In this document: in pieces, positions 759 through 61,445 of the stretch
Layout of the letters: each line of letters opens with the position of its first letter
Numbering within the stretch: the stretch's first letter is position 1
Assembly (NCBI GenBank): GCA_036924285.1
Contig: JAYKYS010000009.1
Location: forward strand, 25,338,001 to 25,402,000
DNA length: 64,000 nt
Reading direction: 5' to 3'
Origin: Asterella californica
Lineage: Eukaryota > Streptophyta > Marchantiopsida > Marchantiales > Aytoniaceae
Program-made: the position numbers and the translations under genes
The notes under the pieces: generated by a model
Told to the model about the DNA's origin: nothing
What the model saw: only the letters and a program-made list of their open reading frames with translations
Databases searched by the model: none

Positions 759-833
759 AATCGCATCTTGCTAGCTTACATGCTTCTCTTGTACCAAGTA
801 AGCTTTGACACACCCTAACTCTACAGGATCATC

Positions 834-2043: not shown

Positions 2044-2061
2044 TCAACCACCTCAAAGCGT

Positions 2062-2084
2062 ACTCTCAGTGGAAGCACCAAATA
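2062..2084 (-). other. Primer-binding-site-like leader of gypsy element
   Basis: On the minus strand this reads TATTTGGTGCTTCCACTGAG and onward, directly after the LTR end and just upstream of gag. A TTGGTGCTT-type leader is common in plant gypsy elements. The exact primer tRNA was not identified. Confidence 0.45.
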
Positions 2085-2187
2085 TGTCGTAGCGAGAGCC
2101 TTTCCTTTGAGTAAAGGCGTATCTTCTAACTGTGGCTAGCGATCGATGCACAGCAGAGCGACTAGTATCTCGTAAATTTCTCTTTGA

Positions 2188-5169: not shown

Positions 5170-5545
5170 TTTAATCACTCAAACTCCTTAATCTTACAAT
5201 CAGAAGAGAAAGCTATATACTCTCATCACTCTATGAACTTCAAATAGCCATAACGTATGCCGTGGACCTCGAAATCGAGTGAAATTTTGACTCAGGTTGC
5301 TCATCCCGTCGAGAGCTCTCTGTCCATTCCCTCTGATCCCCAAAATCCCTCGTCAAAGTGCCCCGATCCTCCCAGAGCGCACACTTAAGTAGATGACAAG
5401 TTATCTTCACTTTTTGGTGGACCAATGGGAAGTTAAAGGACTCAACCTTGTCCTTTTCTGCCCCATGGAGACCCCCAGTAGATAATTGAGCATTCTAAGC
5501 TCATTAGAGCAAAGTTTTAGATCCCATTACACCACAACTTCTACA

Positions 5546-7170
5546 ATTGTGTGCAAAACGCACTTATACGCGTAATTTACATACTAACTGGTCCCACGAC
5601 AGGACACCGTTGTATGGATTGTTGCATAAGGGTCATAAGTTCAGATGGGAGGAAGAGCATACTGATGCGGTAAGGAAGCTGGAGTCTTTACTATCATCTC
5701 CTTCAATTTTAGGAAGGATTGTTTACAAGAGTGCTAGGCCGGTGGTTCTTACCGTGGATACAAGTCTTGTTGCAATTGGATGGGCAGTCGGACAGGATGA
5801 TGAGGATGGAGACAAGTTTGCGGTTAGGTTCGGAGCGAAGGTGTTAAGTGCTCGACAACGTGCTTATCCGCAAGTGAAGAGAAAATTGTGAGATATTGTT
5901 TCAGCCATGAAAACTGAGAAAGAGTATTCGATTGGAGCAGTAGTGGTGGTTGAAACTGATTGCTTGCCGTTGTTAAGGATGATCATGAATTGTCCAACTC
6001 CTGATATTGCGATGTTACGATGGATCGCATATATCAAGTCGTTGAACCCGGAGTTTAGACATATCGTAGGGAAGGATAATCCGATGACAGATATGTTATC
6101 TCGAGCTCGGTATGATGGGGAGGATGAGATGGTTGAAGATATTGACGACGTGGGTGCAAAGTTCTATTCAATTGCACAGACAGGAAAGGAAGATGAGTTG
6201 TTTGTTGAAGGATTGTATGATTGTGATTTGCTTGACATTGGAAGGTAGCTTAGTACGATGGTTAAGCAGACAGCTTGGACGGATGGGAGGTTTCGGAGAG
6301 TTCGAAGGAAGGCCTACAACTTCATGTTGCAGGATGGATTTCTTTGGAAGCGACTGAAGCAGAAAGATGAGGTACTACTACGAGTGATTTGCAACAAGGA
6401 AGATTAGCAGAAGTTGCTCAAGGCGTTCCATGAGAGTCTTTGGACTGGACATCGAGGGATTTGGGTCACTTTTACAAAGATGAAAGAGCGGTATTGGTGG
6501 AAAAACATGTACAGGGATGTTGTATCTTTTGTGGAGTCTTGTTTGACATGTCAAATGTATTTGAACATCCGACATCGTGACGGATTACACCCGACTTACT
6601 CGTTGGCAATCCACTTCAAGTGGGTGGTAGACTTGGTGATTATGCCGGTTGGATTGTGGCAGATGAGATACTTGGTAATTGCTAGAGAAGATCTTTCAAA
6701 TCAAGTCGAGGGTAGGGCGCTTCGGACAAAGACAACTGAAGGGGTATGTAGATTTCTCTCGGAAGAGGTTGTTTGTCGATATGGATGTGTGGGAAAGATC
6801 ACTGCAGATCGGGGAGAGTTAGATGCACACGAGATCCGTGAATTCTTTGCAAGGTGTGGAGTGAGGTTGTCACTGACAACTGCTTACAACCCCGAAAGGA
6901 ATGTCAAGAGTGAACGTGGTCATCCAGCCATTGTGAAAGCTTTGGTGAAGGCCTGCAACGGAAGGGTACGCGAGTGACCTCGACTCTTACCATTTGCGTT
7001 ATGGACAGATCGAACAACGCACAACTCGGTGACAGGTTACATGTCGGTGGAACTCATCAAAGGTCAGAAACCTATCATGTCGATTGAAGAACACGTTTTA
7101 ACATGGAGTGTGTTACCTTGGGAAGACAATTTGACTAGAGAAGAGCTTCTTGCGATTCGAATTAGGTAGT
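5546..7170 (+). pseudogene. Older Ty3/gypsy pol: end of RT, RNase H and integrase
   Basis: One plus-strand frame runs from the LTR edge at 5546 to about 7170, with stops at 5889, 6246, 6405 and 6975. The first part (NLHTNWSHDRTPLYGLLHKG) is the RT/RNase H connection. RNase H follows with TVDTS, ETDCLPLL and HIVGKDNPMTDMLSRARY; the glutamate expected in an AYPQVKREL-type motif reads VKRKL. The integrase has its HHCC finger (FHESLWTGH ... CLTC) and catalytic aspartates in WVVDLV and ITADRG, with the glutamate in KSERGH. The 5' part was displaced by the minus-strand gypsy insertion; the 3' end is cut by the copia element. Confidence 0.85.
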
Positions 7171-8269
7171 CCATACCGAAATCAGCAACGTGGATGGTGG
7201 TGTTGTCACCGAGTTGAATCGTATCATTCTCAGTGTTCTCAGTAGAGACGGGTGAGTATTCGACGAATTGTCGTCGATTATGTGTCATGTGGTGTGTGAC
7301 ACCCGTGTCCACATACCAATTAGGATCAGCTGTCTGCACGATTGCAGATGAACATTGTGCCACCAGAACTCGACGAGTGTTGTTGTTGTTGTTTTGAGAA
7401 CGACGATTCTTGTTCATGTTCTTGTTCTTGTTACCAGCATTCGAGTTTTCGTTGCTGCTGCTGGGTTTGTCCGGACACTCGGCGATGCGGTGCCCGGGCT
7501 TGTTGCACTGGAAGCATTTCTCGTTAGGATCTGACGGTCTCTTCGGTGGCTGGTTACCACCTTGTCGGTTGTCATCATTGTTGCGCCGATTGTTGCCACT
7601 GCATCCTCCTTGCCGGCGTCCTGCAAACAAGGCAGTAGATGGTTCCATTGATAACTTGCGTCCGATCGTTTCCTCCTGGATGAGGAAGGTGATGAGGTCT
7701 TGTTGCGAGAGATTTGGATTTGTTCTCATCGCCTGCAAGAATAAATGGTAGTTGTTGGGCATGCTGCCCATCAACGCGAGGACTTGCTCCTCGTCGGTAA
7801 TTATCAATCCAGCTGAAGTCATCTGCTGGATGAGAGACTTGAAGTTGTTCACGTGTTGGGTGATAGTCTCGTTGGGTTTCATCTTTAAAACTCGCAACTT
7901 CTCTCTTAAGTGCATCTTGGTCACCATGTCTTGACCTGCAAAGTGTCTGATCAAGGTGGACCATGCATCGTTCGACGTGGTGCAGGACATTAGATGTCCT
8001 GCCACGCTGTTCTCGCAACATTCGTTGATCGCTGCGAGCGCGTTAACATCACGCTGATCCCAATCCACGATGCTATCGGATCCGGTAGTAGTGGGAGGGA
8101 TGGGTACCGCAGTACCTCCGGATGTAGTGGCACGTGGTCTTTGCACGTTCCCTTCCACGATATCAAGAACACCATGGGCCCTAAACCGCAAGGTTGTCTT
8201 GTGTTTCCAAAGCGTGAAATATGTGCCGTTGAACTTGACCCAGCCTTTGGTGTCAAAGGAAACAGACAT
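7168..8269 (-). pseudogene. Copia A gag with zinc knuckle and protease start
   Basis: Open frame from MSVSFDTKGWVKFNGTYFTL. Residues 1-215 are a copia gag capsid region (LWKHKTTLRFRAHGVL, HVNNFKSLIQQMTSAG, LALMGSMPNNYHLFLQAMR). A Gly/Asn/Arg-rich linker follows, then the zinc knuckle CFQCNKPGHRIAEC (residues 252-265). Next is an Asn-rich stretch and the protease start WYVDTGVTHHMT, whose active-site triad is D321-T-G. Gag packages RNA and protease matures the particle, both in the cytoplasm. After about residue 365 the frame runs into unrelated gypsy sequence, so the protein is a fusion by truncation. The gag frame itself is intact, suggesting a young insertion. Confidence 0.85.
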
Positions 8270-8440
8270 TCTGTATCAAATTGATCGTTGGAACGATGAA
8301 GTTCTGTTAGCGAAAGTACAGAATCTTAGTGCGTGAAGCGTCCTTCTCGCAGCAGCTGAAGCGTCCTCCAACTGTTCTCACCTAAGGGCCGAAGGCCTAC
8401 CTAGTGCCTATGCTATTGTGCTAGTGCATCAACAAAACAA

Positions 8441-9451: not shown

Positions 9452-12400
9452 TTACTCAAGAATGCCCTCGTCTTTATCTGTAGCTAGGCCTACGTGTTCG
9501 ACTGAAGGGCATTTATAGATTCCTTCTTTTGAAGAGATCTTGCAAAAGCACTCCGACCACGGGTTAGTGTAGAAAGCCTCCGGTGGAACTCGAGTATGTG
9601 GCCTACCCAAGGACTTCGATCCCATGATCCGCCTGATTTCCTTCTCAAAATCAGATCGTTTGAGGCCTCCCTTCTCCAAACTTTTGAACAGCGGAGCGAG
9701 GCTCTTCTTATCAGGCTGCAAAGTGGTACGCAACCCGTAGTAGAGCCTCTGTCCTATCAGATTATTTGCGAAATTACTAGGACCATCGTAGGTTGGTACA
9801 AATATATCCGATAGCAGACAGACTAGGTAATCTACTGCTGGTCCAAGTAGCCCGTGTCCATGTGCGTTAATGAGAGCTAGTTCACCAGGCAGTGCCACCG
9901 TGGAACGTGTCTCCAGATGCGGAAAAAGATCCTTCAGAGGCTTTAAAAATCTTTCACCACCGAAGATTTCTCCAGTAGCTAAGTAGATGTGCGTGGTGTT
10001 GTCAAACCCCATTGCTTGAAGGAAAAGACCCACCTGGACACAAGAAAGGAAAGAGCTGAGACCATGAGGAACCTTTAGTCTAAAGCATTATCATATACCC
10101 ATGACCACTCCGCTGAACACCAGAGAAGGGTAAGTTAGAAGCCCCAGGTTAAACATTTCTTCGCGGTTAGTAAGTACAACCCGGTCTGAGCGAGCTGAAG
10201 CTAGAACTGCGCAGATCTAAGACGAGAACCATCTCCGACTGCAACCCAACCTTAACGTGGTTCTTTTAGAATGCTACACGACTGGCACAGAGTTTAAACA
10301 GTTTCTGTATGTCTGAATTATAGAGATATTGACCAAGACCCTGAGTCTAGCCATGGAAGAGTTCCTGAGAGAAGTTACTACAATAGAGACGGAACTGACT
10401 TTTATGTCCTCGCCTGGGTCCTATCTAACATAATACCTAATGTACTGGACACTAAATAAAATATTAGAATGTGCTGAAGATTGCTTCCTAATTTCAGGCA
10501 GTCACAAGGTTGTGAACCGATGGGTCAAGGAAACTTGAGAGAACTTATGTTATGGTGGAATTCAGTACGGAAACTATTCAACCAATAGCAAGCTAAATCA
10601 TGTGTCAACAGATGGACATAAACGAGACAGCGGGACGTTCTTCCGTGTAAGCAGTGAAGGATGAAACGCAGCGCATACCTCTTGTGGAGTCAAATGACAT
10701 TTTCCAGTTAAGCGCCGGCGGGAATACTCAAGTTTCTTCTGGGCAAAATACTCTCTACGGTACTTCTTGAGTATTTCCTGCTCCTCTGGCGTGAAGATCT
10801 CCAGACACCTAGAGGTTACCGCACTCATAATATATCACTCTTAAGCCGTAAAGCTTCCTTCCATTTCATGGTTATCTCACAAGAAGTTACGTGTGACTAA
10901 GCTAGATCACAAAAAAAAGTTCCTTCCTCCACGGCTGCAAATGATTGTCGGTATACAACCAACTAAAAGGCAAATAATACTTATCCATCGTGATGATGGA
11001 TGAATAGTCACAAATCGAAGTCAAGATTATGTGAATAACTTACCCTGCAAAAGCCAACATGTCCAACTCAAAGCGAAGATGAATTGCCATGTAAGGACCA
11101 CCTGAGCGAAGTCGCTGCACGATCATGCTACTCAGGTTCCTAATATTATCGCTGAACCTCAATGCGTGATAGTTCACACGACAACGTAAACGCTGATATT
11201 CGTGGTTGTCAAGTTTCTCATCGAGACGATGCGAAAATGGGGTGAGATAGACAGCTCCATGCTTTTTCATTTTCTCCAAGGCAGTAGTTTCATACCAGCT
11301 GACAGAGGCGTCACGAGGGGGCTTCAACTGCAAAACATTGATTGACTTCAATCCTCAATCAAATTCATAGCCTTATTTGAAAACCATCCAACTATGTACA
11401 CAAGCCCATTGAATGGAACAACGACTATTCTAGATATATTGTTGGTATACTTACCTACTAGCTACCAGTGGCACACTCCGCGTTTGCTGTTATAGTGCTT
11501 AGCAGGATTTAAGGTTTAGCCAGCTAGACTCTATTCTGGCAGTGATGGCCGACTGAAATTCATAAGCTACAGACGGTGATGAGTGCACGCTAAGCATTTC
11601 CACCGTTTACCTCCGTTCTATCTTTAACGGCCTTCTAATACAGTCCTCTAAAGCACGATAACGACTAACTATTAATTGCGGCAAGGTCTCATGTGTTTAC
11701 TCCACAGCCCAAAGAATTTATTCCGTTCGGTAACCAATCACGGATGTTTGAACATACACTCTAAGCGTCGGATGAGCATGGACAGCGCTTCCTCTACTTA
11801 TAGAAACATTCTAATCTCTACTGGCCGCTCATTAAAGCGATTTCGAAGAAAAGGAGAAACACTACAGACTCCCTGGTGCGGGGGCAATAGCATACCGCGC
11901 TCAAGTAGTAGGGGTGATGTACTCGGCATATAGCCTAGTTGCTTACGCAGACACATTCAAAAACTTACCCATTCATTACTAAACTTAATCAAGTTCCATC
12001 AAAGTTCGAGGAGAAACAACATGATGCCACAGGCCGTTTGCACTATATGTCACATACCTGAAAAGGTCTTAATTTCAACTTTTTTGAGCCAATTGTCCAT
12101 GTGGCTGGTATAGTCTGGATGACCCTCACGTCTTTCTTCAGAGAATCAATGAAGTGCTCAACATCGTAAATACCTGGAAAGCCACTGGAGAAAGAAAGTT
12201 TGGTTACTGTACGATGCCAACGTTGTGCTGCCTTAGCCAACTAATAGAGAAAGGGGATACTCTCAGAACGTGTAACAGCATGCTTAGCCTGGATACTGGG
12301 GATTCCGCTCCATGCATGGACGGTTCTACAAGACGCTTAGAATGATAATAACAGGAAAATGAGGATTAATCCTATGAGAAGTATATAGTGGTACACGGGT

Positions 12401-16133: not shown

Positions 16134-18797
16134 ATTAAAGTTGCATGGATTTCATCAAGCACTACGACGACTGAATCTAGCTGTCTGAGCGGTTGGATAT
16201 TGTACTTGGTAAGGACTTGAAACGATAGCTACTTACGTACAAGCGAGCTTGAAACACATGAGCACAGCAACACTGATTTCGTGCCCTGCACATTCTAAGC
16301 AATTGCAACTCAAAACCATGAAGCACTTCGCGCAGACCCAGCAATGTGGTAACGTGATGTCCATCATGAACAACCGACTAGTAAATAGAACAGTTTCGGT
16401 CACACTATGCAATTAACTAACTAACACATGCTACGCGGGCATGTAATACCAAGGCTTCTGATACCATGTACAACTGCACGTCGTTGAGCTGTTCGTTGAG
16501 CTAAAAGTGGTCAAGTAGGTCAGGTTCGTACCGTCGCATTCTATAAATAAACAAGAGATCAACAGTTCGATTCTGTACACCAGGATCTCATCCTGCTTAA
16601 TGAATCATGTGACAAAATCTGCCGCTTAATTCTGACGTATCTCTCCGCCCAGGAGAGAAGGTGGCACAGATCTAAGTGAGGGTTGATACCAATGAAGTTC
16701 GACCCGTGCTACTGGAGCAGATCATATGCTCTAGCCTGCTGCCAGAATATCATGGCTCGTTGTTTAGACGCATTCAGTGTAGGGAAATCACTGGACTGTC
16801 AAACCAAACAGCCTCTCGGTAATCTTCATTCTTGGAAGTCGATCCTATATATTAACGTCAGAGAGGAAACTGAAAAGCTGATTCTAGCCCCTCCTGCCAC
16901 TCCTCCGTGATCTTTCAAGCTCCTTCCACTCACAATCCAGACTCCATCGCTGTCCACACAAAGTAAGATTACTCACAAGAAAAGTTTCAAACTCAGTTAA
17001 CTGACATACAAAGCTAGATAAACTCAAAAGCACTGAGAAATCACCTTCTGTCAAACACGAAGTATTCGGAAGCTACAGGCATCGCCCGTTCTTTGACTTT
17101 TGGTTCTTCAAAATATCCACGGACAACTCAAAGCACGCTTCCGTGGACCAGGCCCAAGCACTACACACACAGACGAAAAGAAAAATCGTCTCTTGAAACC
17201 GGACCTAGAACGTCAAAAGGCAAAAGGTGAAAGAACAAGAAAAGCGCCCAGAATTGAGGAGAAATTGTACAGTGTACTGCGAGACGGTCAAGAGGTAGGT
17301 GACATCATGCAATTGTGAAGACGCGACAATTTCAGAACCTTCGTACATTCACAGATTGGGCCAGCGTGACCAGTACGCTTCACTCTTTGTTGGTCGCCAT
17401 CGTACACTCCTTACCACATCTATGCGTCGTCTCTGGGATGGCATGAGAATTTTTTCCTCTTCATGCATTAATCACCAGCCGTGTGGACCTGCTGCGTGTT
17501 AGGACTGGTGGTACTGCTACCTTTCGCTTGAATGGTATTTTCACTTTCTTCTGCGGAGAAGTCAGAAGCGGGATAACGCTCGGTAAGCTACGCATAGTGA
17601 TGTGCAATCATTCATTAATCAGTAAGGTGAGGTATGGAGGAAACCTATGCACGTTGATGAACGAATGGTGGTGATCAGGCCTCCAGAATACTGGAGGCCT
17701 GATCACCTGTTTGCTTTATTACGCATACGCGTAACTCCTTCGATTTCGAAAGAACAGGGAAAGGACAAAGTTCATCTCTTTGTCATGTAAATCCTCTCTA
17801 AATAGAGTTCTTGGAATTCTTGGAAAATGTCTTGGAAACCGTCCATCTTTCACCTTTCTGAAGGTCGCTATTAAAAGTCTAAACTTCCTTGCATATTGTA
17901 TAAGCCTGCATAATCACCCTAGCGGATGTTCAAGGCAGTTAGCATTAAGAATTAAAGTTTTATTTTTGGCAAGGACCTATGAACACCTGCATTGTTGTAT
18001 CATAACACACTTTCTATTTTCTTTTTTACTTTTTTAAAGAATCTATAAATTAAATATAAACAAAATAAAAAATAAAAGTAAGAACACATTTTGATAAAGT
18101 ACTCCACTTCCTTTATTCCGCAAGTGGAGCATTGCTTCTCGCAGTACTTACAGTTCTATTATTTTGTTTTGATGGTTATGCATCCAGGTATCATAAGCTT
18201 TATATTGTTAGAAGTATAAATTTAACTTTTTTATTTTATCTCGAACAAATATCACAGGTGGTTTACAATTGAGTTAGTATTTTTAGAAGTACACACGGTT
18301 GGTTCGAGTACCACCTTGATTTGTTAAAATTCATCGTCTTCTCTTTAATCAGTTACACTTCTATTTCTGAAAGTTCTCTAATTATTTTTATCATGTCAAC
18401 AACATTATCTTTTTCTCTGGAGTGCTTGTAACCAGTAAAGAAAATGAATTTTTATCCTAATTTCCAGCTTGTCCTCTTTTTTCTTTCTGACCAGAAGGTA
18501 ATGTTGCATGCATATTGGACAGAAATCGAGTCACTCAAGCATGGTTCACGGCGCTTTTGCTAGTGGATTATTTATGTCCTCCGTGTCTTTATTTCCACTC
18601 TTGTCCAATGGGAGCCACTGCTCTAGACCTCATACGGAATCTCAGACCTCTTTAGCACCTCTTTTTATTTTTGGGTGGGTCCACTCGCATTTATTACGTC
18701 CAATTACAACAACGAGTTCGGCCACGCTTATGCAGAACGGAAGTTCCAAATAGAAACAGGTAATGAAAAAGATGTGACTGTATTGCGAAGAGAAGAA
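16134..18797. other. 5' flank of O-fucosyltransferase-like gene; no gene recognised
   Basis: Probably includes the 5' UTR and promoter of the minus-strand gene. Plus-strand open stretches at 17100-17318 (basic, rich in Lys/Arg) and 17299-17674 overlap in different frames and match nothing I know. A perfect 17 bp hairpin lies at 17670-17707. From about 18000 the sequence becomes AT-rich. Confidence 0.4.
17670..17707. repeat. Perfect 17 bp inverted repeat with 4 nt loop
   Basis: GGTGATCAGGCCTCCAG, loop AATA, CTGGAGGCCTGATCACC. It is followed by a second small hairpin (TTACGC-ATAC-GCGTAA) 10-15 bp downstream. No mismatches. Confidence 0.95.
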
Positions 18798-19017
18798 AAG
18801 TTACAAACATATACTGCTCATTGTGTAGTGTGAGCACTACGTAATATAGCGTCTAAACTATCTACTGCTTTACACTGGTCAAGTGGACGGACGTAGTACT
18901 CGCTGTAATATTCCAGTCTATTGTCCTGAAAGGAAGTTACAAACAGATAGTGCTCAGTATGTATCGTCATACTATGTAATATATCATGTACAATCGTGCT
19001 ACTGCATTTCACTCTAA
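18798..19017. repeat. Tandem repeat, about 136 bp period
   Basis: AAGTTACAAACATATACTGC... (18798) and AAGTTACAAACAGATAGTGC... (18934) align over about 80 bp including ACGTAATATA / ATGTAATATA and CTACTGC. The pair lies just 3' of the minus-strand Rep-like copy 1. Confidence 0.75.
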
Positions 19018-19114
19018 TTCGATAAGGTGATCACCGTCGTAGCTCCCGGTCCTTAAGAGATGAACTGAGGTAAATTGTGCTCCTCCGCAGCGTTGTCCGG
19101 CAGGACAGTTTGTT

Positions 19115-19885
19115 CTTGCGGGCTTGGCTGCTCCTGCTCGTCTTCTTCCTCTGCCTAGTTTCTATCTGTTTCAAAGTACATGTGATTGCAATGTGGACAT
19201 CGTTTGTTATCGACGTGGAAGAAAATGTTATTGACGTCCTCTGGTGTCACCTGTTCCGGTCAGATAAAAGTGTTATATAACGAATCGGATCGTCTTTTCT
19301 GAATTCCTGCATGCATAATCTACATGAGGGAAGCAGAGTACTTCCCTGAAAGTAGCATTTGACGAAGACGAGATAAAGTGTTTGAGAGTGGGTGTGAACT
19401 TTTGTATTTGTTGAATTGGAGTAATCACGAATAGAATATTCATATAAGTCAATTCTACAAGATTTTTGGTGTTTGCAGCTCCTAATAGCATGAACAATTC
19501 TTTATCATCCACGATCATACTCTCAATGATATTCTTCATCATGGTGTGATGGTGTTGCAGTTTCTCGTCCTTCAAACAATAACCCACCATGCTCACAAAT
19601 GTGTGCAGCCCTCTGTTGGAAAGTTGCTTGACGTAGACCTCTGCTCTCTATCGAACGCTGCTGTTCCCACCCAAGTGCCAAAAGTATCTTCTTTTTCATC
19701 TCCACGCAAGACTTAATGGATATAACGCCCTGGAAATGTAAGTGCAAAAGGCTACCATCTCGCTCGACAGAGAACATCCCTGAGAGGCATTGCTTGTGCA
19801 AGAACGTAGAAAGCAGCGAGAATAGAGAAGGGTCAAGGTCACTTCTCGTCAGACAAACAGTCACTGACAGCTCCAGACTCGATCT
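19115..19885 (-). pseudogene. HUH/Rep-like protein family, copy 1 (frameshifted)
   Basis: Minus-strand reading gives LELSVTVCLTRSDLDPSLF, then FSVERDGSLLHLHFQGVISI, then after a frameshift LSNRGLHTFVSMVGYCLKDE, then KELFMLLGAANTKNLVELTY, and after more shifts VTPEDVNNIFF and CPHCNHMYF. The His-Leu-His triplet followed by QG, and the later YCLKD, have the order and spacing of motif II (HUH) and motif III (YxxK) of rolling-circle Rep endonucleases, which nick DNA through a tyrosine. The C-terminal CPxC pair suggests a zinc ribbon. Copies 2 and 3 at 44-45 and 58-60 kb share these blocks. No helicase was seen. The assignment as a Replitron- or CRESS-like Rep is inference from motifs; the existence of the family is seen directly. 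Confidence 0.7.
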
Positions 19886-20135
19886 CTTAGCCCTCGTCTA
19901 TCACACGTAACAAACGGTTTATTTCCTCTAACTTTTGTTTCTTCTGGTAAAATATTTACGTTAGTATAAGAACAGTGGGAAAAACACAATGTGTACGTTA
20001 ATATAACCCACGGTGAGAAAATAGATCATTTTCTACAGTCATTACATCAAGATCACCAATCCGGCACGGCCATCTGAACTCAATGCACCTCCAAGAACGG
20101 AAGCCAGCGGAAATGGATGGAGCATGGTTATTAGC

Positions 20136-23143: not shown

Positions 23144-25401
23144 CTGGAAACCTGAGACCGAAGAAAGACCCTACTACGACCGTGTATCCTCCCAACATCT
23201 CAAGCAAACAATAACCGCAAACTATGACGTACCAGAAACTGACTGAACTGAAATCGATTCGGCACTTACACTGAAATCCACCTAGGCCCATTGACGGCCT
23301 GCCTTGAGTGAATCCCATTTGAACAACACTGTGGAGATCTCCTTCCCAAAGACCTCGGATCTGTAAGAACCCACTAAGAGTCACCTTCAGAACTTTAAGC
23401 ATTAGGTATCGACTATAATGACGGGACTTCAAACAGAACCGTGAATGAAAGAATGCGAGCTTCCCTCCCCAGTCCACATATCCAGACTGGGAAGGGAAAC
23501 TGTCACGAAATGGACAACTAACCTGAGATAAACCATCTCCGAACATATCGGCTGGCGCCCGAGGTAAAGTCATTGGAGCGCTATTCATTCTTCTTAGCGT
23601 TGGCTCCACACAATGAGGGCCGTCCAAACCATTTGCCAGAGAGTGGTGAATGTTTAGTGATAGCTGGGAGTGAAGTTGGGGGAGTTGGGGATATGGGACA
23701 CAGGCTTCGGGGTGCTCCACCATGTTCGGTAGTCCGCAAGTTTGTCCCATCTGGAGCTGCACTAACAGAATACCGAATAAGCAACAGCAGTACACATATG
23801 TAGCAGACACTATATGATTTCTCATCCCTAGCGATAGGATGGAGGAAGAAGATTCATTATTGTCAAGAAGTTAGATTACCTGCTTGGTCAGAAAGCTGTC
23901 AATATTGAAGTCCGTACGCGGAGTCACCGCTGCCAGTTTCATTGAAAGGAACTGGGAGAAACCAACGAAGGTAAGGTCAGCTCGATGATTCCGTTCACAC
24001 TACTTAAGAGCTGCTGCATCCAAATGGCTTGAAGAGGAAGACTGCAGGGTGGAAGATCAGCCAACCTATATCAAAGAACAAATCTCACCTCAACTTGCCG
24101 TTGAATGGACTGCACATAATTGATAATTTCATCCAGCATTACGGCCTTCCCCGTAACCTTGCTGCAGCCAGGTACAAGATCCTGTAAAAACTTCATGCGT
24201 TCACTGATCTTTTCTCTGCGAACTCGCTCAGCCAGACTGTGACTATCCGTGGCTTGACCCCTCCTAGCTCTCACATGAATATAATCAGTCTTAGGATGAT
24301 CCACATGTTTCGAGTCCTTGGCCTGAGAACTTGAGCTTGAATTATCACTCCGCTCTGCTTTCGACTTTTGATCATCTTTTTCTTCGGCACCTTTGGAGCG
24401 CTTTGACTGTACACCTGTACTCTGAAACACAAATAAGAAACGAAAGATTAGTTCCAATCTGATATAAATTCTTTTTCTAGGACCCACTTCCGACATAACC
24501 CTGCAATGATGCAATGGGGCAAAACACCTCCCCTGTCCTTTAATCTCAATCATCAGTTGCTTGTAACTCGTAAGAGACAGCTCACCTTTTGATCTTTGGT
24601 GACGGGAGAAGGTGCTTCTTTAACAGCTTCATCAACGGTAGATTTTCTCTTCTTCCCACTTAGATGCGTAGCAACTGATCGACCTTGATCAGCATCAGCA
24701 TCAGCACCGGAAGTTTCTTGACCCCTGTTGCCATTAGTGACATCAGGTTCGGATGAGCTTGGAGTTACAGCTCTTTCCGTGTCAGGTAAATTACAGCCTT
24801 CATCCGCTTGCGGGGATGAGCAGCCCGCTGAACTGCTACGATAGAGCCTGCTTTTGGCTTCCTCCCCTTCGACAGTACGTTCCATGCCATTGGCTTGAGT
24901 TCTACCTGAATCGTCAGAGGAGCCCATGGCTCCGGAAGCGGTCTCTCCCCTTGCGGACATTTTGGCAAGCTTGGCCTCATGCTCATAACACTGAGAAGCA
25001 GACCTCATGCTCCCACTCTCACTGAGAGAGAAAGAATGTGAGAAGTGTCCGTTCCCGAAAGCTGAGAACCTGGCAGCTCGTTCTGCAAACCCAGGATTAG
25101 AAGAGAATCGTGCTATAGAAGGAGAAGACGGAAGGCCAACTCCTTGAAGTGCAAAACCACCTTTGGACGGATCGACTGTCAGGCCTAGATTTCCATTGTC
25201 AACCAAATTCCAGTTACCGAGGGGAATGGATTTCTCCATGCCCATGAGTTCTTGAGAACCAGACACACTGCGCGCCAATCTGAAATCTTGATTAATCGCC
25301 GCTGGATTCACTCCTGGATTGCATGCGTGAGGCAGGGAGCCGGTGACACTAGGAAGTAGGGAGGCGAGAGAAGATGAGTAACGCTCGCTGACATCCATCA
25401 A
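23109..25401 (-). CDS. bHLH transcription factor, BEE/CIB-like subfamily (6 exons)
   Basis: Exons, minus strand: 25401-24586, 24421-24089, 23951-23880, 23756-23523, 23360-23270, 23143-23109 (last tentative); 1581 bp, about 526 aa. The first four junctions are phase 0 and the fifth phase 1, all GT-AG. Residues 1-320 are Ser-rich and disordered. The basic helix-loop-helix domain is at about 323-384 ([20 protein letters not shown] then [16 protein letters not shown]). H333, E337 and R341 are the H-E-R set that contacts E-box/G-box DNA. Exon 3 ([20 protein letters not shown]) and exon 5 ([14 protein letters not shown]) are blocks conserved in the Arabidopsis bHLH49/62/74/CIB group. Nuclear dimeric regulator; in flowering plants relatives act in brassinosteroid and light-linked growth. 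The function here is inferred from family only. Confidence 0.9.
24089..24421 (-). CDS. bHLH exon 2 carrying the DNA-binding domain
   Basis: Opens [18 protein letters not shown], an acidic/basic Ser-rich run, then a basic region with H-E-R residues, helix 1 ([15 protein letters not shown]), loop (SKVTGKAVM) and helix 2 ([16 protein letters not shown]). The donor CAAGTTGAG/GTGAG cuts right after helix 2, as in angiosperm relatives. Confidence 0.92.
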
Positions 25402-26681
25402 GTGTTGTTGCCAATCAATCCTTACAACCGTGCTGCCAAAGGCGTGGGACGAAGGGTAGCACGGAAGGTGGTAGAAAGTAGCATTAACGTTGCTACTTGA
25501 CTCTGAACCATGTCCCGAAGATAACTGCTTGAATTATCAAGCCATCCCCTTGGGCCTTAGTTCGACCTGAAAACCGTCAAGGCTCACATGATTCAGATTT
25601 ATATGTGTAAGAAGGTGTAAACGTGTCTAAGTTAACGGTGTGATAGAAAGGTGGTAATGCAGCGAAGAGGACCCGTCTCAACCAGATGTAAGTCCTAATA
25701 AAGCTGCAGAAACCCTTAAAAAAAATGCGTTGTAATGAAACATGAAGAGAAATTATTGTTCAAATGACTCAGTTGGTAAGTTAAGAAGAAAAGGGGAATC
25801 GAGTCAGAGATTCCCCTTTTCTGTGTAGGTTATCGGGAAATCCTGCAGTACATAATGTACATGACACCCCCCCCATTTGCCACATAGCTATCATCGGCAG
25901 TGGCATTGGAGTCCCAAATTGAGAAGGATGCAGGCAGGGACTTACCAGGCAATCCCCGCGGATATGGCAGAGAAGTTCACCAACAACCACTTTATGTAAC
26001 AGCTTTTAATTTCCAACTGGCCAGGAACTAGCTTCTGTAATGCCACCTTTCCTGGGTTCAAGGGCTCCTAATCGTTCTCGATGCAGATAAGAACGTTGAA
26101 GAACGTTTCAATGACTATGAAACTGCCGAGTCTTGGCAAATCAATGAACCACCATCAAAACTCTCCTCTACCAGAAGCACGATAGTGCCAGTATATTTTA
26201 GCAACGCCTGCCGTCCTGACCAACCATTAGGAAGAAGAAAATACCACGCTGACCTCCCTCCCTCCGTCGCTTCAGCAACCACAAGTCAATAGTGTTTGCA
26301 ACTCACGAGCTCCTCACCGCTTTCACAAAAACTTAAAAAATAAATGTCAATCCTTCATCTTCCTCTCCTGTTGCGCATGTAGTGGTGGATTCTCCTCGTA
26401 ACTGTCTCTGTTTCTGCTTGCTGTGTGCTGTTGCTGCTTCGCTCTCTGCTGTCTCTCCCCGCTCTCGCTCAGCACACTCCTGCTGTGTTCTGTTTCCGCT
26501 GTTGTGTCTCTCTCCTCAAGTAAAAGAAGAAGAAGAAGTAGCGAACTCCACAGAGGACACTCTCACACTGGAGGGTCCCTCCATCTCCTCCTACGTACTA
26601 GAGGGCGTGGTGACAGAGTGCCTTAGCCCACGTGGGCTTTACCAGCCATCTCTACTCTCAGTAACAACTTCTAGCACGTAA
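25402..26681. promoter_or_regulatory. 5' flank of bHLH gene (UTR/promoter, pyrimidine-rich on plus strand)
   Basis: Holds a 14 bp perfect hairpin (25787-25822), a CT-rich tract at about 26380-26520 and an AGAAGAAGAAGAAG run. A palindromic G-box CCCACGTGGGC lies near 26625. It is upstream of the minus-strand bHLH gene and is most likely its promoter and 5' UTR. The plus-strand ORF at 26382-26681 is low complexity and not credited as a gene. Confidence 0.4.
25787..25822. repeat. Perfect 14 bp hairpin
   Basis: AGAAAAGGGGAATC, loop GAGTCAGA, GATTCCCCTTTTCT. Upstream of the bHLH coding start by about 390 bp. Confidence 0.95.
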
Positions 26682-44439: not shown

Positions 44440-45374
44440 CGTTTCAGTTATGTCGCAGTAAGCTTCTGCGAAATCTGATGAAGATGACTGTGTTTCTTCT
44501 GGGGATGATGATATTGTCGCCGATGATGACCTTCTTGTCTGTGTTCTCGCTACGCCCCTACCTGAGATCATTGCCGACATTCTCTTTCGACTCCTTTCAG
44601 ACTGTTTGCTGTCACCATTCTGATCTTGTCTCAGCGTGTACTGTAGATCGCTTTTGAAAGCCGGCTACTTACCTCCTTATCCTCTGTATTCTGGTAGGCT
44701 CTTGTTATTCTGCGATCTTGATCTTTATAGAACCAGATCCTACATATATCTAGATTTTCATTTCGATCGTGTTCCAGCTGAGTTCTTGCTGGATGGCCTG
44801 GATTATGTGCTGATTGGCAAATCCTTTTCCATACCCGCCACTTGCCTCCAGGTCATCGTTGGACCATTCCACTATATCAACTCTTGGATAACCTTACGTG
44901 ATCGCAGATCGACATTCTTCTCTTATCCAAAGTTCTTTCAGTTCGGCATTGATCCGCATCTTCTGAAGCCTACTCTAGCTGTGATCTACCGCCTGAACTG
45001 TGTTCATTGTATTTGTGAAGACATCGATCCTCAATTGTTCAACTTTGCTTGCAAGCACCATCCGTTTCTCACGCACGCTGCTGAGAAGGGCAGCGAAGAC
45101 AAAACGCGTGCCTGTCCCACCTCCAGCGACAGGAACGCGTCGAGTATCAGTACCGCATCAACTTGAACTCTCAGTTACGATTAACTGCACAGGTGCTGAT
45201 CTTGACATGGAGAAATGTTGGCCTGTTTTGTGTTCTTTTCTTCATGATGAGTGCACCGGTGGGCTCCTGTCCATCGAGAGAGGAGGCAGTCTTTTACACT
45301 TTCACGTGTAGGGGGTGCTTTCTGTTCAGGCTACTAGCACTCTCCAGGTGAAGCAACGTATTCTCACTGCTCAA
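44440..45374 (+). pseudogene. HUH/Rep-like protein family, copy 2 (truncated)
   Basis: Acidic start (DDCVSSGDDDIVADDDLL), then the family N-terminal domain (RSYIYLDFHFDRVPAEFLLD, FNFACKHHPFL), then LELSVTINCTGADLDMEKCW, then SIERGGSLLHFHV with a CAG-to-TAG stop where copies 1 and 3 have HFQG, then VLSVQATSTLQVKQRILTAQ. Homology ends at 45374, exactly where direct repeat B begins, so motif III and the C-terminal zinc ribbon are lost. Several frame changes occur. The same N-terminal domain is found in copy 3, which shows that it belongs to the family. Confidence 0.65.
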
Positions 45375-50250: not shown

Positions 50251-53165
50251 ATAAACTTTCTGCGAAGACATGTAAAGTGACATGTAACTCTAAAAGATAA
50301 CTTAAACAAGCTAGAAAGTATGCATGGACGACATGTAAGCAGAACCCATGAGCTTAAACTCTATCCACATGATAAACTTAAAGTTATGTACTTTGAACAA
50401 CATAGATAAGTATGGAATCATTTGCACAAGCGTACTAGTGCTTGAACAAGATAAATAACATACTATCAACCTATTAGAACTCAAAATATCTAACATAGTA
50501 ATGTTAACACTATATGCAAAAGTGTCGTATGCATAAAAGTCTAGAAGTAATATTTAGCTAACTTCTAGAACTAGTAAACTCAAGTGTTGGAGTAAAAATG
50601 TAGCAGGTAGTCGCCAAGTAGTGCGACATCGTCATCACTAGTTCCAACGTATTTGTAAACATCCAAGAGGAAGTGAATCCAAGAATTTCAAATTTGGCAT
50701 ACTCAGTGGTTGACACAAGGAACTCATGAGGATTGTTTGATAAATGCAGATCGAGATACACATATCGTCATAGAAAAGAAAATCTCTTATCACTAAAAGG
50801 CTTTATACTTCAAATTGCAGCGATCAACCGTTCAAAACAAGGATAGCCACGGGTACTATTAGATGTGATGAGAATAACTTCACATGTATTGTAATCGTGA
50901 ACACCCTATCAGAGGTCAAAGATAAATCCTCACAATGAACACTATTGGTAGAGCAGTGCTATGCTGAAGTGAATTCATGATCAGAATTCTCAGTATCATC
51001 CGTTTTGATGGGTATCTTTGAGATAATGATCATCATGCAGCTGAGTTGCTTGTCCATCTAAGGAAATATGAATTTCAGTCATGACGATGAGGAATAAAAT
51101 TACTATCTTGCTGGGCCGCATATTATTCAAAGCTAGCTAGTTTGCGAAGAATGGTCCTCAAGTCAGTGCCAAGTCGTAGTCGAAGTCGTGCATTGAACAT
51201 GGATAAGTTTAAACTTTGCATTGTGATTCTAATCTTGTTATCCTTATCACTTTAAACATTTCCATCACTTCAAGGTTTAGGGTTTAAACCCTTAACCCTT
51301 AACTTGCCATCACTTGTTATCTTATGTAGTTTTTAAAATATAATTAGATTTTTGAAATTCTTTCATCCATCGTGTAACTTACTATACAATATTTTATTAA
51401 GGGTTATTCATCTTATCCATTCGTCTCATCCTATCCGTGTCAAAGACTATGTTTCAGATCATGAACTTCTGTTGTAATTCACTGATGCAGATCTTACCGA
51501 AATAAATTATGAAGCTCAACTGAGATGAAAATAATTTGTCAAACAATCATAGAATTCAAAAATTCTTAGCTGCACGTGTCTTTTATCATGTTTACCAAAG
51601 TGTAAAGTAAATTTTGGTAAAGTGTATAGCAGATTCTCTTATCAATTATATAAAAAGTGAGAGATTTTTAAGTAGAAGACAGCAAAACGAGATCATGAGA
51701 AAGGTGAAGAAAGCAAACCATGTTCATGAGGATAGAAAGATTTGTTCATTCTTATCAATTTAGAAAACCAATTAAAATCTTGGAAAAATTTGATAATATT
51801 ATAATTGATGCTATCGTATTCCGTATTATCATTGCTTGGACAATCGAGCAAAGGAAATATGCATGTTAGGACTAATGCCCCGAAGGCTAGAGTTAAAGTT
51901 TTGAATTTTGAATTTTGAATTCACATCACTAGCTTACTCAAAGTTAAAAGAAGATAAAATAAGATGAAAGTTTATGTTTAACAACATCATATTGAGCAAA
52001 AAGAGTATGAGTATGAAAATGGATGTTTGGATAGAGAATGTTATGTACATGTTTCCAAACAATAATGAGGTTTAGTTTGACCAAAGATACATACAACCTA
52101 ACCTCCATTGCTACCATGGAGAAAATGATAATGTAACAGTGCGAAAATTTGAATAGATGATATGTAGAATAGGGGTGTCAAAGTTGGAACCTTTCTGAAA
52201 AGATGTAGACTCTCTCAAGAGAGTTACGAATTCGGCAAGACCTTTCGGTGTTTTTTGTCTTTGGGAGATACCAGGAGGAAAATGCCACAGACGTTTCCTT
52301 AACGATATTTTGTCTGTCCTTTTTTGCCATGGAGAATTTATTGCTCTGAGTAATGAGTCTGAGTGTCATAACCGAAAAAATTCAATAAAATGACCATAGT
52401 TTCCAGTCACTAGCGCGGCCCATAATGAATCGTGCTTGTATATAAAGTTATCTGCGGTGATTTTACGGCTCTTTCTCTCTCCGTAGTTGAAGAATATTTC
52501 CTCTTTAACTTTGACAACCCTAATAGACCAGTCAACGTTAGTGTTCTCGAGTTGATAATAACATTTCTTATCACATAACGGATACCAAGTTATTTTCTGA
52601 ATTTTTGTTCACTAAGCTTCTTCATGCACCATATTTTTTTCTTATGTTTTCTGCTTACAACGGGATTTCTGCTGATTGTTGTAGTAGCAAGGATGTCTGA
52701 TGGATCATTCTTCTTTCCATTTACCAGTCTCCTTTGATTTCATGACTGTTGTTGATCCAGCCCACTATTGATTTCATCTTACATGTCATGTACTTGCTAT
52801 AGACGACTCCTAGTACTGTTATCATGTTTTGGTTTGTTGTTACCTGGCGCCTCTTGATTTTACTTTTAACTAGAATTTCATGACGAGTATTCTCGATTTC
52901 ACGAGTAGGTCCTAAATTCTTTGGTTTAGTATCACAATACCGAAACGAGCATACCTGTTTCTCATGTCTGCTTCAGAATCTGAGAATTCTTCTCTCCTCG
53001 TGATTCTCATTTTGGCGTCACACTTCTTTCTTTGGTTGAATTTTGTTCGTTACTTTTGCGGTGGAGATGGTAATAGTGCATTGATGTTTCCCGAGCGAAG
53101 AGAAGAGAGAGAATTGTAACCAAGTTGAGCTTGCATGTAAATTGCATGCCACATTTGAACACCCA
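50251..53165. other. AT-rich intergenic; nothing recognised
   Basis: Short ORFs only. A telomere-like GGTTTAGGGTTTAAACCCTT followed by AACCCTTAA is at about 51273-51301. No repeat unit or coding motif could be supported. Confidence 0.35.
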
Positions 53166-53346
53166 TGCATATTCACCTCTTTCATTTTCAGAGGGAAAAA
53201 GGAAATATACAAAAGTTTAAGTTATAATGCTAGGTAGAATTAGACAGTAAATTGAATATCCATAAAAATCTTTTTTGATTCGTCAGGCTACCACTCATAT
53301 AGTTTCTCAAGCGCATTTACGAGCACTTGACTTATGGGTTCTTTTT
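53166..53346 (+). repeat. Double-hairpin unit C (hairpin 2 degenerate)
   Basis: TGCATATTCACC (53166-53177) with CCTCTTT...GAGGG, then 160 bp later CTTATGGGTTCTTTTT (53331-53346), the same spacing as in unit A. The middle hairpin is decayed (GTTTAAGTTATAATG...CAGTAAATTGAAT). Confidence 0.6.
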
Positions 53347-53685
53347 GCTACTCTGTTTGAGATGTAACATTTAACAGTTCAATTATATTTCGATTTGCCA
53401 CACCTAGCTAATCTATAATTCAATTTAATATTTGTATATTTATCATTAAAAAAATTCGTAAAAACATTCTCCGCCACTAAACTGATATGCATGTTGTAAA
53501 CCGGTCAAGACTCAATAAGCGTGCATACTATTGATGTACCATATTATCAAGAATTTACCTCAAAATCAAGGATGCATATTGAGATCCCCATGTTAACCAA
53601 CAACTCCAGCAAATTCTTGTTTTGTTTGTTTTTTCCCTTTCGCGAGAAGTCCATGTTGCATACACATTATGATATTCCAAGTTCC

Positions 53686-55692: not shown

Positions 55693-55876
55693 AACCCATA
55701 AACGGAGTACGGAGAGTGATCCTTGTATTTGTTTAAACATATGTGACACACACGTACCAGACTATTTAACAACTTTAATGTATGACCTAAACCCTTCCAA
55801 AGGAAAGGTTAAGGACATAAATTAAAGTGTATGCATATTCATCCTCTTCCGAACTCGAAAGAGGGTGAATATGCAT
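55693..55876 (-). repeat. Double-hairpin unit E (reverse)
   Basis: Read on minus: hairpin 1 ATGCATATTCACCCTCTTTC.../...GAATATGCAT (55831-55876, about 20 bp arms), hairpin 2 (55774-55826, TTTAAT..TATG.CCT.AACC type), box TTATGGGTT (55693-55701). The clearest complete copy. Confidence 0.85.
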
Positions 55877-56958: not shown

Positions 56959-57808
56959 CGTTTCTTTACTAAGGGTACCGTCTAAACGTGTTTTCAACTG
57001 TAGTGATTTCTAGATGCCTATTACTACTTCTATTTCTATGGAAGACTTTACATGAAAGATGACTACTTATGAAAATTAAAATATACTAAGCATCTAGTCA
57101 AAGAGTACCTTATTCTGTTTCACACTGCAAAAATACTTTTAAATCTTAACAAAACAAGGATAGGAAGAATATTGTACGATCCAATAGAAGTACAGAAAAG
57201 ACAAGAGGCAGATGAGTCTTGCCATACGTTGCCAGGTTTTTATAGCTTTGCTCTCATGGAAGACCGCACTTATAGTTTATTGCATTAACATAGTTCTTCT
57301 CTTTTCTGAAAGGTGCAGTGGGGTGATGATTGGCCCCTTTTCATACTTGTCCTTCCTTCTCGACAGCGGAATGTGTGCACTCCTTTAAGGATTCCGACTC
57401 TTCTCAAGGATATGTGAGATTTACCGGTTGAGAAACAGAAGCGCATGCATTTGACCCTGCGGGGATTTCCCTGTCAAGGAAAAGAAAAAGAGAACAACAG
57501 AATTGCAGTCAGATCAAAAATATGTGTGAAATACTGCAAAGAAAACAGTTTACAAGCCCACCAACTGACAGGCATCAATCATGTAGTTGAAACAGTCTCG
57601 AGTGCACAACGATCTGCAAGAAATTGGAAGTTTAAATATACATCCCAAGCGTACCAACCGGGAATGGGAGGAAGAGGACGAGCGGGTGTAACGGCCGGGA
57701 AAATTTAAGACGGAGATTGGTTGGGAGGGGAAGCGCGGCTTCCACTTGGCGTTGGTTGTCAAATATCCGCGCAGCAAATTTAATAATCAAACCTAGCTGG
57801 CCGCCTTC
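56959..57808. other. Intergenic; nothing recognised
   Basis: Overlapping low-value ORFs around 57445-57777. No motif recognised. Confidence 0.35.
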
Positions 57809-57996
57809 AACGAAAGCCGCCAACTAGGTTAACTAGGCGGCTTTCGTTTGCTACGCGGGCCTTTGTTTTGTTCGGTGCTTCATGACTAAGGTGACGCGCT
57901 GCGGATAATCGATTGTCAGTATCATCGTTTTCTTTTCTCGCTGTTTCATCGCTACGGTGAGTCGCTGCCGCTGATCGATTGTCACTATCATTTTTC
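57809..57996. repeat. Hairpin and 66 bp tandem repeat upstream of Rep-like copy 3
   Basis: Perfect 13 bp arms AACGAAAGCCGCC / GGCGGCTTTCGTT (57809-57848). Then TTCATGACTAAGGTGACGCG... (57879) and TTCATCGCTACGGTGAGTCG... (57945) share ATCGATTGTCA.TATCAT. GC-rich relative to the AT-rich surroundings; possibly a leader or promoter of copy 3. Confidence 0.75.
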
Positions 57997-58585
57997 GGAC
58001 AGGGAGGCGGACGGCGCTGTGATCTGGTGCCTTGCTAGGGATCGGGCATGGGTGGAACAGCAAATGAAAAGAGGTCAATTTTTGTGCCTGCGAGCGAGGC
58101 AGAGGCGGAGCACAGACAATTTGCTGTTCTTCAATGTTGTCTTTGTCTACTGATGTGGTGATTTGTTCTGGAATTAGCTTATCTTGGCTGCGAAGTGAGT
58201 AGAGATCGCGATGTCCACTTTCAAGTGCTTCACGTCGTTCTATCTATGCTCCTATTTTGCTGATGTCTTTATTCGTTCTGAAATTAAGTTCTCTTCGTTA
58301 GCATAATTACCTTTGGTGCTGATTGGAGAAAGCCATGTCGTTGGTCAGATTTCGAATCTTTCATTCTGTCTATTCTGTTGGAACTGAGGCACAGACAGAG
58401 ACAGATCAGTTCAGAGTGGGCATCTATGCATCTTGACTAACAGCTTTTGTCATGACACGAGCAGTTCTGGTGAAGACTCTGTCACGATGGCACGGGATGG
58501 GCTTCATCTTCCCTTCGTCGCTGTGAAGATAAGTTCTCTGTTTTCTGTGAGTGAGGTGAAATGCTCTCTTTAGTGTGTCGATGAT

Positions 58586-60110
58586 ATGGAAGACTCAGCT
58601 ATCAGTGATACGCAAGAGATAGAAAGTGATACACAAAGTGACCAGTGTCCTCCCGAGAGTTCTAATATTGTGCAGGCATCGCAAATATTTCAGTGTTTGC
58701 GCTTCTCTTTTGTAGTTCCCCGTTTCTCTTATTTATCGATCCACGAGCTTATGATTTCATTTTTGGAGGAGAGGCTTCAGTTAACTCGCAGTTATTGTTA
58801 TTTGGACATCGTTTCCTCCCGAGAAATCGTTCCATTTCTGTTCAAGTTTGATTACGTGAAAATTACAAAAAGTTGTTGGCCATACCATATACACTCTATT
58901 CCTCTACAGTGGCTTGCAGACCCGTATAGATTTTTCTCATACTCCTCTGATAACCTGTCGCTTTACCAGCAAGATCGGAGGTTCTGCATTTTTTCTTACC
59001 CTGTTGTTCTTCAGTCGTTCAGAGCACACATTAGAGTCTAATGTGTCTTGCTTATATAGGACGCACTCCTTGCCTTGTTTGTGCACTGTGCTGGACCCCG
59101 TTTGAGTTCAACTTTGTTTGTCATCACTTCTCTTCCTTATCGCGAGATAATGTCTTTGAGGAGGGAGGCGAGAGCGAGAAGACCGCCTTGAAGCGTCAGT
59201 GACAGTTTGTAAGACCGGGATTGATCTTGATGTAGCATTGTTTTCTCTACTTTCTCACTTCCTTCATACACAATGTGTCTCAAGAGTGTTTTCGGTCGAA
59301 TGTGGAGGTAGCCTCCTCCATTTACACTTCCAGGGATGATCTGCATCTACGTCAAGTCGTGTATTGATATCAAGAGGCGTGTACTCCAGGCTCTTGAGTG
59401 AGAGCAGAAGAAACCCGTTGGTGGAGAGGTATGCGTCAAGTTGCTGTCGAAGAAAAGGCTGCACACGTTCGTAGGTATGGTAGAGTACTGCTTTAAAGAT
59501 GAGCAAGAGCCGCACCATGTAGCTGCGATGAAGAATATCAGCGAATCGATTGTCGCTGACGGCAAAGAGCTTTTTATGCTACTTGGTGCTGCTGACACAA
59601 AGAATCGAGTGGAGTTGACGTATTTCAACATACTACAGAGGGCTCTTCAGTATAAAAGATACAAAAGCAGACATTTGCTATCAACAACATTTCCCCGCTG
59701 TTTGCATGCAATGCTTATGTCTGAGAAATATATGCCATCTCCTAGGTGGCTACTTCAACATGGTATACACAAGTGACGTGCCAACGCACTGTGGAGTTCG
59801 CTTGTGAGTCCTCGGGATGTCACTCCCGAGGACGTTAATGAAATCTTCTTTTTCAGGGAAAACCAGCGGTGTCCACGCTGTAGCCGCAGATACTATCAGT
59901 ACGCAAAATGCAAGCCGATGAGGACCTCGCACTGGAACTACCACCTCAAGCAGAAGACGATGAGGACCACACAGCGGAAGTATGAGCTCAAGTTCGTGAT
60001 GATGGCCCTCTGCCAGAATATATACCGCTTGCCACAGCGCTTATGCGCTCCACTGGCTCTGATAGATACTTCCTCATTCCAGTTTGAGGCCGATACTATT
60101 TCTCTGTGTT
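58586..60110 (+). pseudogene. HUH/Rep-like protein family, copy 3 (most complete)
   Basis: Acidic start MEDSAISDTQEIESDTQSDQ, the family N-terminal domain (RSYCYLDIVSSREIVPFLF), then after a shift FNFVCHHFSSLSRDNVFEEG, then SVTVCKTGIDLDVALFSLL, GGSLLHLHFQG (motif II, His-Leu-His), a frameshift, a TGA, LHTFVGMVEYCFKDEQ (motif III, YxxK), KELFMLLGAADTKNRVELTY, then VTPEDVNEIFFF, CPRCSRRYY and an acidic tail. Block order equals copy 1. At least one stop and three shifts make this copy inactive. Rep endonucleases nick DNA for rolling-circle replication or transposition; no helicase domain follows. Which Rep-bearing class this is cannot be settled by eye. Confidence 0.7.
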
Positions 60111-60247
60111 TATGCTTCACAGAGAACTATAGATGATTTTTTGTTGACTAGTAGTTATATATATGCTTCGTGGAATATCTTCGTTGTTATCTGTGCTTAT
60201 GCTTGGCAAAAAAATATAGACGAATTGGACCGGTCGTATCAATTCGA

Positions 60248-60410
60248 TGTAGCAGTGGTTTTGAATGAAGTAAAGTTTGTGTTCTCGGACACCTATCTTG
60301 CACTTCTCCCCAGTTAGACTGGGAACTTGTGTAGCAGTGGTTTTCAATGAAGTAAAGTTTGTGTTCTCCTCAGTTGCAGTGGAAACTTGTGTGCGTTCCG
60401 AGTAGCGCAG
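60248..60410 (+). repeat. Tandem repeat, 82 bp period
   Basis: TGTAGCAGTGGTTTTGAATG... and TGTAGCAGTGGTTTTCAATG..., each continuing AAGTAAAGTTTGTGTTCTC and ending near GGAAACTTGTG. Lies 3' of Rep-like copy 3, as copy 1 also has a tandem repeat at its 3' side. Confidence 0.9.
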
Positions 60411-60968
60411 TGCTCCAGAGACTGATATACTACTGTTTAGTGGAATTTTTTTCAGGTGGTTTCAGGCCCGCCGGTTTTACACATCGTTGTACACCGTAAG
60501 TGCATGGTATTGGACGCTGTAATATAAACTTGGCGGTTGAAAACCGCACATTAAAGCCTTATCGACCGGTTTCGAGAAAATGACCAGCACGAAGCGGATC
60601 CAACAAGCACGGAAGCGGAGCAGGACTCGCCAGCCCATTGACTGTGAATAAATAAAAAAACAAAAACCACCATCACACAAGAACTTGAGACAAGTGAATA
60701 TACATCTGAATAATATGCATCCAAACTGTAGTTTTGCCTAGAAAAGGGAAAAAGACAAACACCGAGTGAAGAGGAAAATAGAAGGACGCTACTAGACAGG
60801 ACACAACAGTGGGGTGCGGTGGAAATGTTACCATGAATTTTATAATATTAAAGTTAATATTTTTATAGTAATATATATAAATATATAAATATTATGTATT
60901 AACTGTAGACGGCATGCCAGACTTTCCGCCAAGAACTTATAAAGAATGTGTTTTGCAGCGTGTCTCTA
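60411..60968. other. AT-rich intergenic; nothing recognised
   Basis: No coding motif seen. Contains GTGAATATACATC at about 60694, a possible hairpin-1 remnant. Confidence 0.35.
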
Positions 60969-61119
60969 GAGCCATAAGACCGGTTCGCTGTTTGCACATA
61001 AATTAGGTATTTTATAATATTTAATTTATCACCTAAATTTTTTGACGAGAAAGGTTAAGTGATAAATTAAACACCTTGCATATTTTTTGTCTTTTGCACT
61101 TGGAAGAAGTGAATATACA
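60969..61119 (-). repeat. Double-hairpin unit F (reverse)
   Basis: Read on minus: hairpin 1 (61077-61119, TGTATATTCACTTCTTCC...), hairpin 2 (61020-61071, TTTAATTTATCACTTAACC.../...TTAGGTGATAAATTAAA, long near-perfect arms), box CTTATGGCTC (60969-60978), the same box variant as unit D. Confidence 0.85.
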
Positions 61120-61445
61120 TCCTAACTCACAAGAATGATGAGGTTGATACACTCAGTGAGAAAACATAATTTATGCTTAATACTGCTATACTGTTCACTG
61201 CCAGATTCGTACAGCAAGAGATAACATATGCATGTAAAATTTATAAAATTCTAAAATGAATGTGCATAAACCACCATTAAATTTAATGCAACTCTAAGAT
61301 AAATCCACCGTTAAATGACTAAATTTAAATGGCCATGCCTGGAAATATGGAGTGATTAGGAAATAAACCATCAGGTATGAGTACACATCCGTGCTGCAAG
61401 AGGTACAAGTCCGGAAACCTGCTGTTTATACATTAATACATTATT

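Follow-up and report, generated by a model that had tools for sequence, protein, structure and literature searches.

A 2023 paper by Craig (PNAS) reportedly gave the defining description of Replitrons. To our knowledge, movement of a Replitron has yet to be demonstrated in the laboratory, and the route of transposition is open. According to PMC10741241, these elements have direct terminal repeats of 5-11 bp, target-site duplications of 2-8 bp and a size of 0.9-4 kb, and their hosts are green algae, liverworts, mosses, lycophytes or ferns. We analysed a 64-kb stretch of the genome of Asterella californica (contig JAYKYS010000009.1), hereafter called the window, in which an earlier note had described a Rep-like protein family in three copies. 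The window stretches are very probably remnants of Replitrons of about 3 kb, relatives of which encode an acidic N-terminal region, a single-tyrosine HUH Rep and a C-terminal region. Like described Replitrons, this family matched Replitron_HUH above the cut-off, had no detected helicase, carried short direct terminal repeats and fell within the 0.9-4 kb size range.

The identity of the protein family was assessed with Pfam profiles, for which the cut-offs are 28.5 bits for Replitron_HUH (PF21859) and 27 bits for Replitron_C (PF21860). Two unmended copies found elsewhere in the genome exceeded the PF21859 cut-off: a 225-amino-acid (aa) open frame of copy L002 scored 46.7 bits and a 341-aa frame of copy L023 scored 49.0 bits. 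When L002 was searched against 5.8 billion proteins, the sole match was R1sor_006525 of the liverwort Riccia sorocarpa (47% identity over 193 aa), which itself carries PF21859. Searches with R1sor_006525 and with a 12-row alignment returned 27 and 30 rows, corresponding to 34 distinct proteins (P0001-P0034), all from Riccia. In the Rep region, the Riccia proteins are 46-47% identical to the Asterella family along a stretch of about 190 aa, and some also appear alike by eye in a GPY/GPF...HP-type N-terminal stretch, for which BLASTP against P0021 was not significant (E 0.074). A sequence search of solved structures gave two rows only (E 0.084 and 1.9), and a PHROGs search gave one (E 0.2). We disregarded a weak match to SGT1 (15.4 bits against a cut-off of 30) given by a window piece, a 124-aa open piece of the copy at 58 kb.

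The earlier note had proposed a rolling-circle endonuclease of Rep type, Replitron-like, without a helicase and distinct from Helitrons, and the profile matches agree with it. A Helitron, or a derivative that has lost its helicase, would also be a eukaryotic HUH transposon with an HUH transposase, as PMC13231165 describes RepHel. However, a Pfam search of L023 and of seven Riccia proteins gave no helicase family at E≤1 (no pattern search was aimed at Helitron ends, TC...CTRR, or a linked helicase), Replitron_HUH exceeded its cut-off, the terminal repeats are direct, and site duplications are present in some copies. We therefore give a Helitron origin a negligible probability, and treat the family as Replitrons below.

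To locate the copies, the window was searched by tblastn with L023, its exon frames kept separate, and two Riccia proteins as queries. Matches were found at 19095-19894 (minus strand), 44675-45371 (plus strand) and 58586-60084 (plus strand), with best E values of 5e-50, 8e-18 and 9e-120, and the reversed window, used as a control, gave zero matches at E≤0.01. The three loci are remnants of one protein family, and every one is broken. The limits given in the earlier note were too short, as homology at 19 kb reaches approximately 18531-19896 and the copy at 58 kb lies inside an element spanning 57635-60705. The features are:

18531..19896, minus strand: 5'-truncated, frame-broken Replitron copy of subfamily 1 (blastn against genomic copies L002-L008 and L009)
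19727..19744, minus strand: motif 2, HLHFQG, of the 19 kb copy (frame read from tblastn)
44675..45371, plus strand: third, more diverged copy, with the N-terminal region and the HUH domain to motif 2 (HFHV*) (tblastn)
57635..60705, plus strand: Replitron copy of subfamily 2 with both termini, 3071 bp, coding part broken (end motifs and genomic copies)
58586..59099, plus strand: exon-1 remnant with the acidic start and N-terminal region (MEDS...PYRFFSYS...) (tblastn with the L023 exon-1 frame, 72-87% identity)
59099..60084, plus strand: exon-2 remnant that covers the Replitron_HUH domain and the C-terminal region and is interrupted by stops and frame changes (tblastn)
59319..59336, plus strand: motif 2, HLHFQG, of the 58 kb copy
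59486..59497, plus strand: motif 3, YCFK (Y-x-x-K), of the 58 kb copy

The coding remnant of the 19 kb copy is spread over three frames; set against a longer genomic relative, this copy is missing roughly the first 1.9 kb, N-terminal exon included (blastn). A frame change and stops disrupt the coding part of the 58 kb copy. At 44 kb, where stops also interrupt the coding remnant, exon 1 and exon 2 were matched by tblastn at E 9e-16 and 8e-18, and a stop stands at the expected Gln position of motif 2. The tblastn matches end at 45371, so the YxxK, LGAADTKN and VTPEDVN blocks were not found in this copy. Thus, the three copies described in the earlier note are at their places, but the one at 44 kb does not share all of the blocks.

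We then considered the family in the whole genome (517 Mb), with 40 candidates scored per query, and the copy counts are lower bounds. With the 19 kb stretch, all 40 scored of 375 candidates matched, its own locus counted, the best other copy being 85% identical; among the 40 scored of 329 candidates for the 58 kb stretch, the others were 93-69% identical. Copies that look intact, which the earlier note had proposed to look for, were found: both coding stretches are open in at least four genomic copies (L022, L023, L024 and L026), with an upstream stretch containing MEDSDIAV and a downstream stretch of 341 aa containing the Rep domain in a different frame. L017 is similar, with MDDSG and 351 aa. 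Because the two open stretches lie in different frames, an intron is likely, and the longer relatives probably encode one predicted spliced protein.

Open frames in some copies would also suit domestication, in which a Replitron gave rise to a host gene, as an alternative to a transposon family. Against this, the open copies are at different places, each between transposon ends, members of the L022-L027 group share 87-97% identity with L022, two of the open-frame copies being 97% identical to each other, and the window copies are plainly decayed. Domestication is thus very unlikely, and a family of Replitrons is the preferred reading of these copies. In one Replitron copy, L014, the 5' part is present three times in tandem (gene strand 364-5002; locus strand 4415-8338), as a partial head-to-tail array whose units are 69-91% alike and recur about every 1580 bases.

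The ends of the element were defined by comparing 12 sequences, 11 of which had the same 5' edge within one base; the L021 stretch has no such edge. The 5' end is AATATACATCC, or AATATACGTCC in some copies, and the 3' end is GTGAATATACAT or a near variant. AATATACAT is present at both ends of the 57635-60705 element and constitutes a 9-bp terminal direct repeat, part of which may be common to the target, as in L022. The distance between end motifs is 3045 bp in the L023 element, compared with 3071 bp in the window. The motifs GTGAATATRCAT and AATATRCATCC each occur five times in the window, versus 0.02 and 0.05 expected, and bound two shorter elements as well as the large one:

57635..57645, plus strand: 5' terminal motif AATATACATCC
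60694..60705, plus strand: 3' terminal motif GTGAATATACAT
60712..61120, plus strand: 409-bp non-autonomous relative with ends AATATGCATCC and GTGAATATACAT (end motifs and genomic repeats)
53165..53580, minus strand: candidate 416-bp non-autonomous element with ends AATATGCATCC and GTGAATATGCAT (terminal motifs alone)

The 409-bp element is repeated in the genome, the main matches among the 40 scored of 556 candidates being 69-78% identical. It contains an internal palindrome (61020-61073), which matches the opposite strand in many copies. Only 6 bp separate it from the 3' end of the large element, which it follows in the same orientation (57635-61120). A 3' subterminal hairpin, as in other HUH transposons, was considered but is not established, small hairpins being present immediately ahead of the 3' motif in part of 18 ends with a mean z of -0.48 versus shuffles. 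Separately, a CTCTTCC...GGAAGAG-like hairpin was observed just before GTGAATATRCAT in L018 (3713-3770 and 3827-4178, gene strand) and in the window (55841-55876); these short hairpin-bearing sequences may represent 3' ends of further small, non-autonomous relatives.

Insertion sites were sought by joining the flanks of five copies (L022, L017, L023, L024 and L025), then of seven further copies, and searching for empty sites. For L022, eight listed places cross the junction, two aligned in full and five at the junction. Five empty sites carry ATGAATATCTTA where L022 holds the element, and the nine bases after GTGAATATACGT were found in none of the five. The duplication in L022 is 1-6 bp, a range given because AATAT belongs to the target and the element 5' end alike. 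For L017, the duplication read from four empty sites (75-82% identical) is 0-1 bp, and the 3' tail is roughly four bases long. These paralogous empty sites show that L022 and L017 are real insertions. No site crossing the junction was found with the joined flanks of L023, L024 and L025, nor with those of the seven further copies.

Duplications were also evaluated in 14 copies with both ends, after L010, L013, L014, L021 and L026, in which an end is lacking, had been dropped. The longest flank-to-flank match averaged 5.8 versus 4.6 in 182 mismatched pairs (permutation p 0.0016, L019 included). Candidate duplications of 5-7 bp were found in L009, L012, L020, L022 and L023 and one of 15 bp in L019, with none clear in the rest; the longest flank matches were 15 bp in L019 and 7 bp in L020 and L023. 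The duplications lie 7-13 bases past the 3' motif in L009, L019, L020, L022 and L023, while the longest match is off the duplication position in L011, L015, L018, L027 and the 58 kb window copy. Target-site duplications therefore exist but vary in length.

An apparent preference for GAAT was noted in the 409-bp family. Of 30 loci, 28 have the 5' end, and in eight of these GAAT lies upstream of it by no more than six bases, versus a background of 1.6% (binomial p 1e-8, a value that is optimistic because copies may be non-independent). The 409-bp copy of the window is among the eight and, with such a preference, its position beside the large element may reflect insertion next to an end-like site. 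GAAT is also near the 5' end in two (L019 and L027) of the 11 larger copies listed.

Several observations weigh against the assignment to Replitrons. The 124-aa piece of the 58 kb copy scored 23.4 bits with PF21859, below the cut-off, as did the shorter genomic pieces of L003 (27.6 bits) and L004 (19.1 bits). Unlike in described Replitrons, Replitron_C is below its cut-off here (L023, 18.2 bits), and among seven Riccia proteins four matched it below the cut-off (15.5-24.8 bits) and three had no match. The duplications, 0-1 bp in L017 and as long as 15 bp in L019, span a wider range than the 2-8 bp published, and several 3' junctions have copy-specific tails, also unlike Replitrons. The whole predicted model of a Riccia relative is weak (mean predicted local distance difference test score, pLDDT, 68.1; predicted template modelling score, pTM, 0.47). 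Foldseek with this model returned nothing at E≤0.001, its top two rows being unrelated enzymes, and Rep rows rank first only in a second look by VIA structural alignment. Finally, the first His of HLHFQG is not conserved in the relatives: the 22 Riccia proteins with a letter there (three are gapped) have N (16), Q (4), K (1) or S (1), and none has His.

The last point concerns the active site, for which L002 was aligned with 25 of 27 Riccia proteins (the two omitted, P0014 and P0018, do not carry the Pfam domain). The second His and the Gln of HLHFQG are each kept in 20 of the 22 relatives with a letter there, and the Tyr and the Lys of YxxK each in 15 of 16 (nine of the 25 being gapped). Of 12 sequences in the 58 kb family, all have YCxK and 11 have HLHFQG or HLHFQE. 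Conservation thus holds for the second His, Gln, Tyr and Lys, but not for the first His; the His-Leu-His pair of the earlier note is spelled out in the copies at 19 and 58 kb but is not supported as the conserved metal pair. Given this conservation in relatives, the metal pair is likely His-x-Gln, as judged from the aligned sequences. The C-terminal zinc ribbon with a CPxC pair fared no better: a single CxxC is present, with no second one in the following 36 printed residues, which gives a zinc ribbon no support. The Riccia proteins differ here too, as aligned rows have no CxxC directly past the FF block and some end in CICC or CLCC.

The combination of His-x-Gln and YxxK is also the arrangement of Rep proteins of circular Rep-encoding single-stranded (CRESS) DNA viruses. 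In the VIA alignment, the predicted fold of the Riccia relative resembles Rep endonucleases, and CRESS Rep domains fill the top eight rows. The aligned parts of the domains of porcine circovirus 2 (PCV2, 6wdz), duck circovirus (7kij) and faba bean necrotic yellows virus (FBNYV, 6h8o) are 14-20% identical in sequence. Both points would suit an endogenised Rep gene of a circo-, gemini- or nanovirus-like CRESS virus, duplicated later, which the earlier note had also suggested. However, Replitron_HUH exceeds its cut-off, and no viral Rep or superfamily 3 (SF3) helicase family was found at E≤1 in pieces of L002, L003, L004 and L023 and seven Riccia proteins, which makes a viral origin unlikely. Among 12 sequences from the 58 kb family, Walker A was matched just once, in L021 and outside the coding part, and the gene is located between defined transposon termini in many copies, two of them with empty sites. 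Taken together, endogenisation of a viral gene is extremely unlikely.

For the Replitrons of this genome, a route of transposition can be proposed. Rep would recognise AATATRCAT-type ends, and the tyrosine of YCxK would cut one strand and stay attached to the 5' phosphate, with the metal held by His-x-Gln. Rep would then join the cut strand elsewhere, in many cases next to GAAT, and the second strand would be made by host enzymes. We tentatively suggest, as a possibility that is rather less probable than its converse, that a His-x-Gln Rep cuts the 3' side from a few to about 13 bases past GTGAATATRCAT, giving copy-specific tails and varied duplications, and that GAAT sites resembling the element's own 3' end are preferred, so that copies adjoin. 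The open-frame copies and readable empty sites make end recognition, target choice and strand transfer testable in this genome; apart from this, the locus is one further record of a family described in 2023.

Other features were found in the window. Two overlapping open frames at 24071-25533 (minus strand) apparently encode a basic helix-loop-helix (bHLH) transcription factor, with the HLH domain in 24071-24619 and no family matched in the second frame. An exon-like open frame at 9452-10087 (minus strand) corresponds to an O-fucosyltransferase. A 403-aa open frame at 7064-8275 (minus strand) is a copia-type gag with a zinc knuckle, and a retroelement integrase fragment is located at 6408-6977 (plus strand), with Integrase_H2C2 above its cut-off and rve slightly below.
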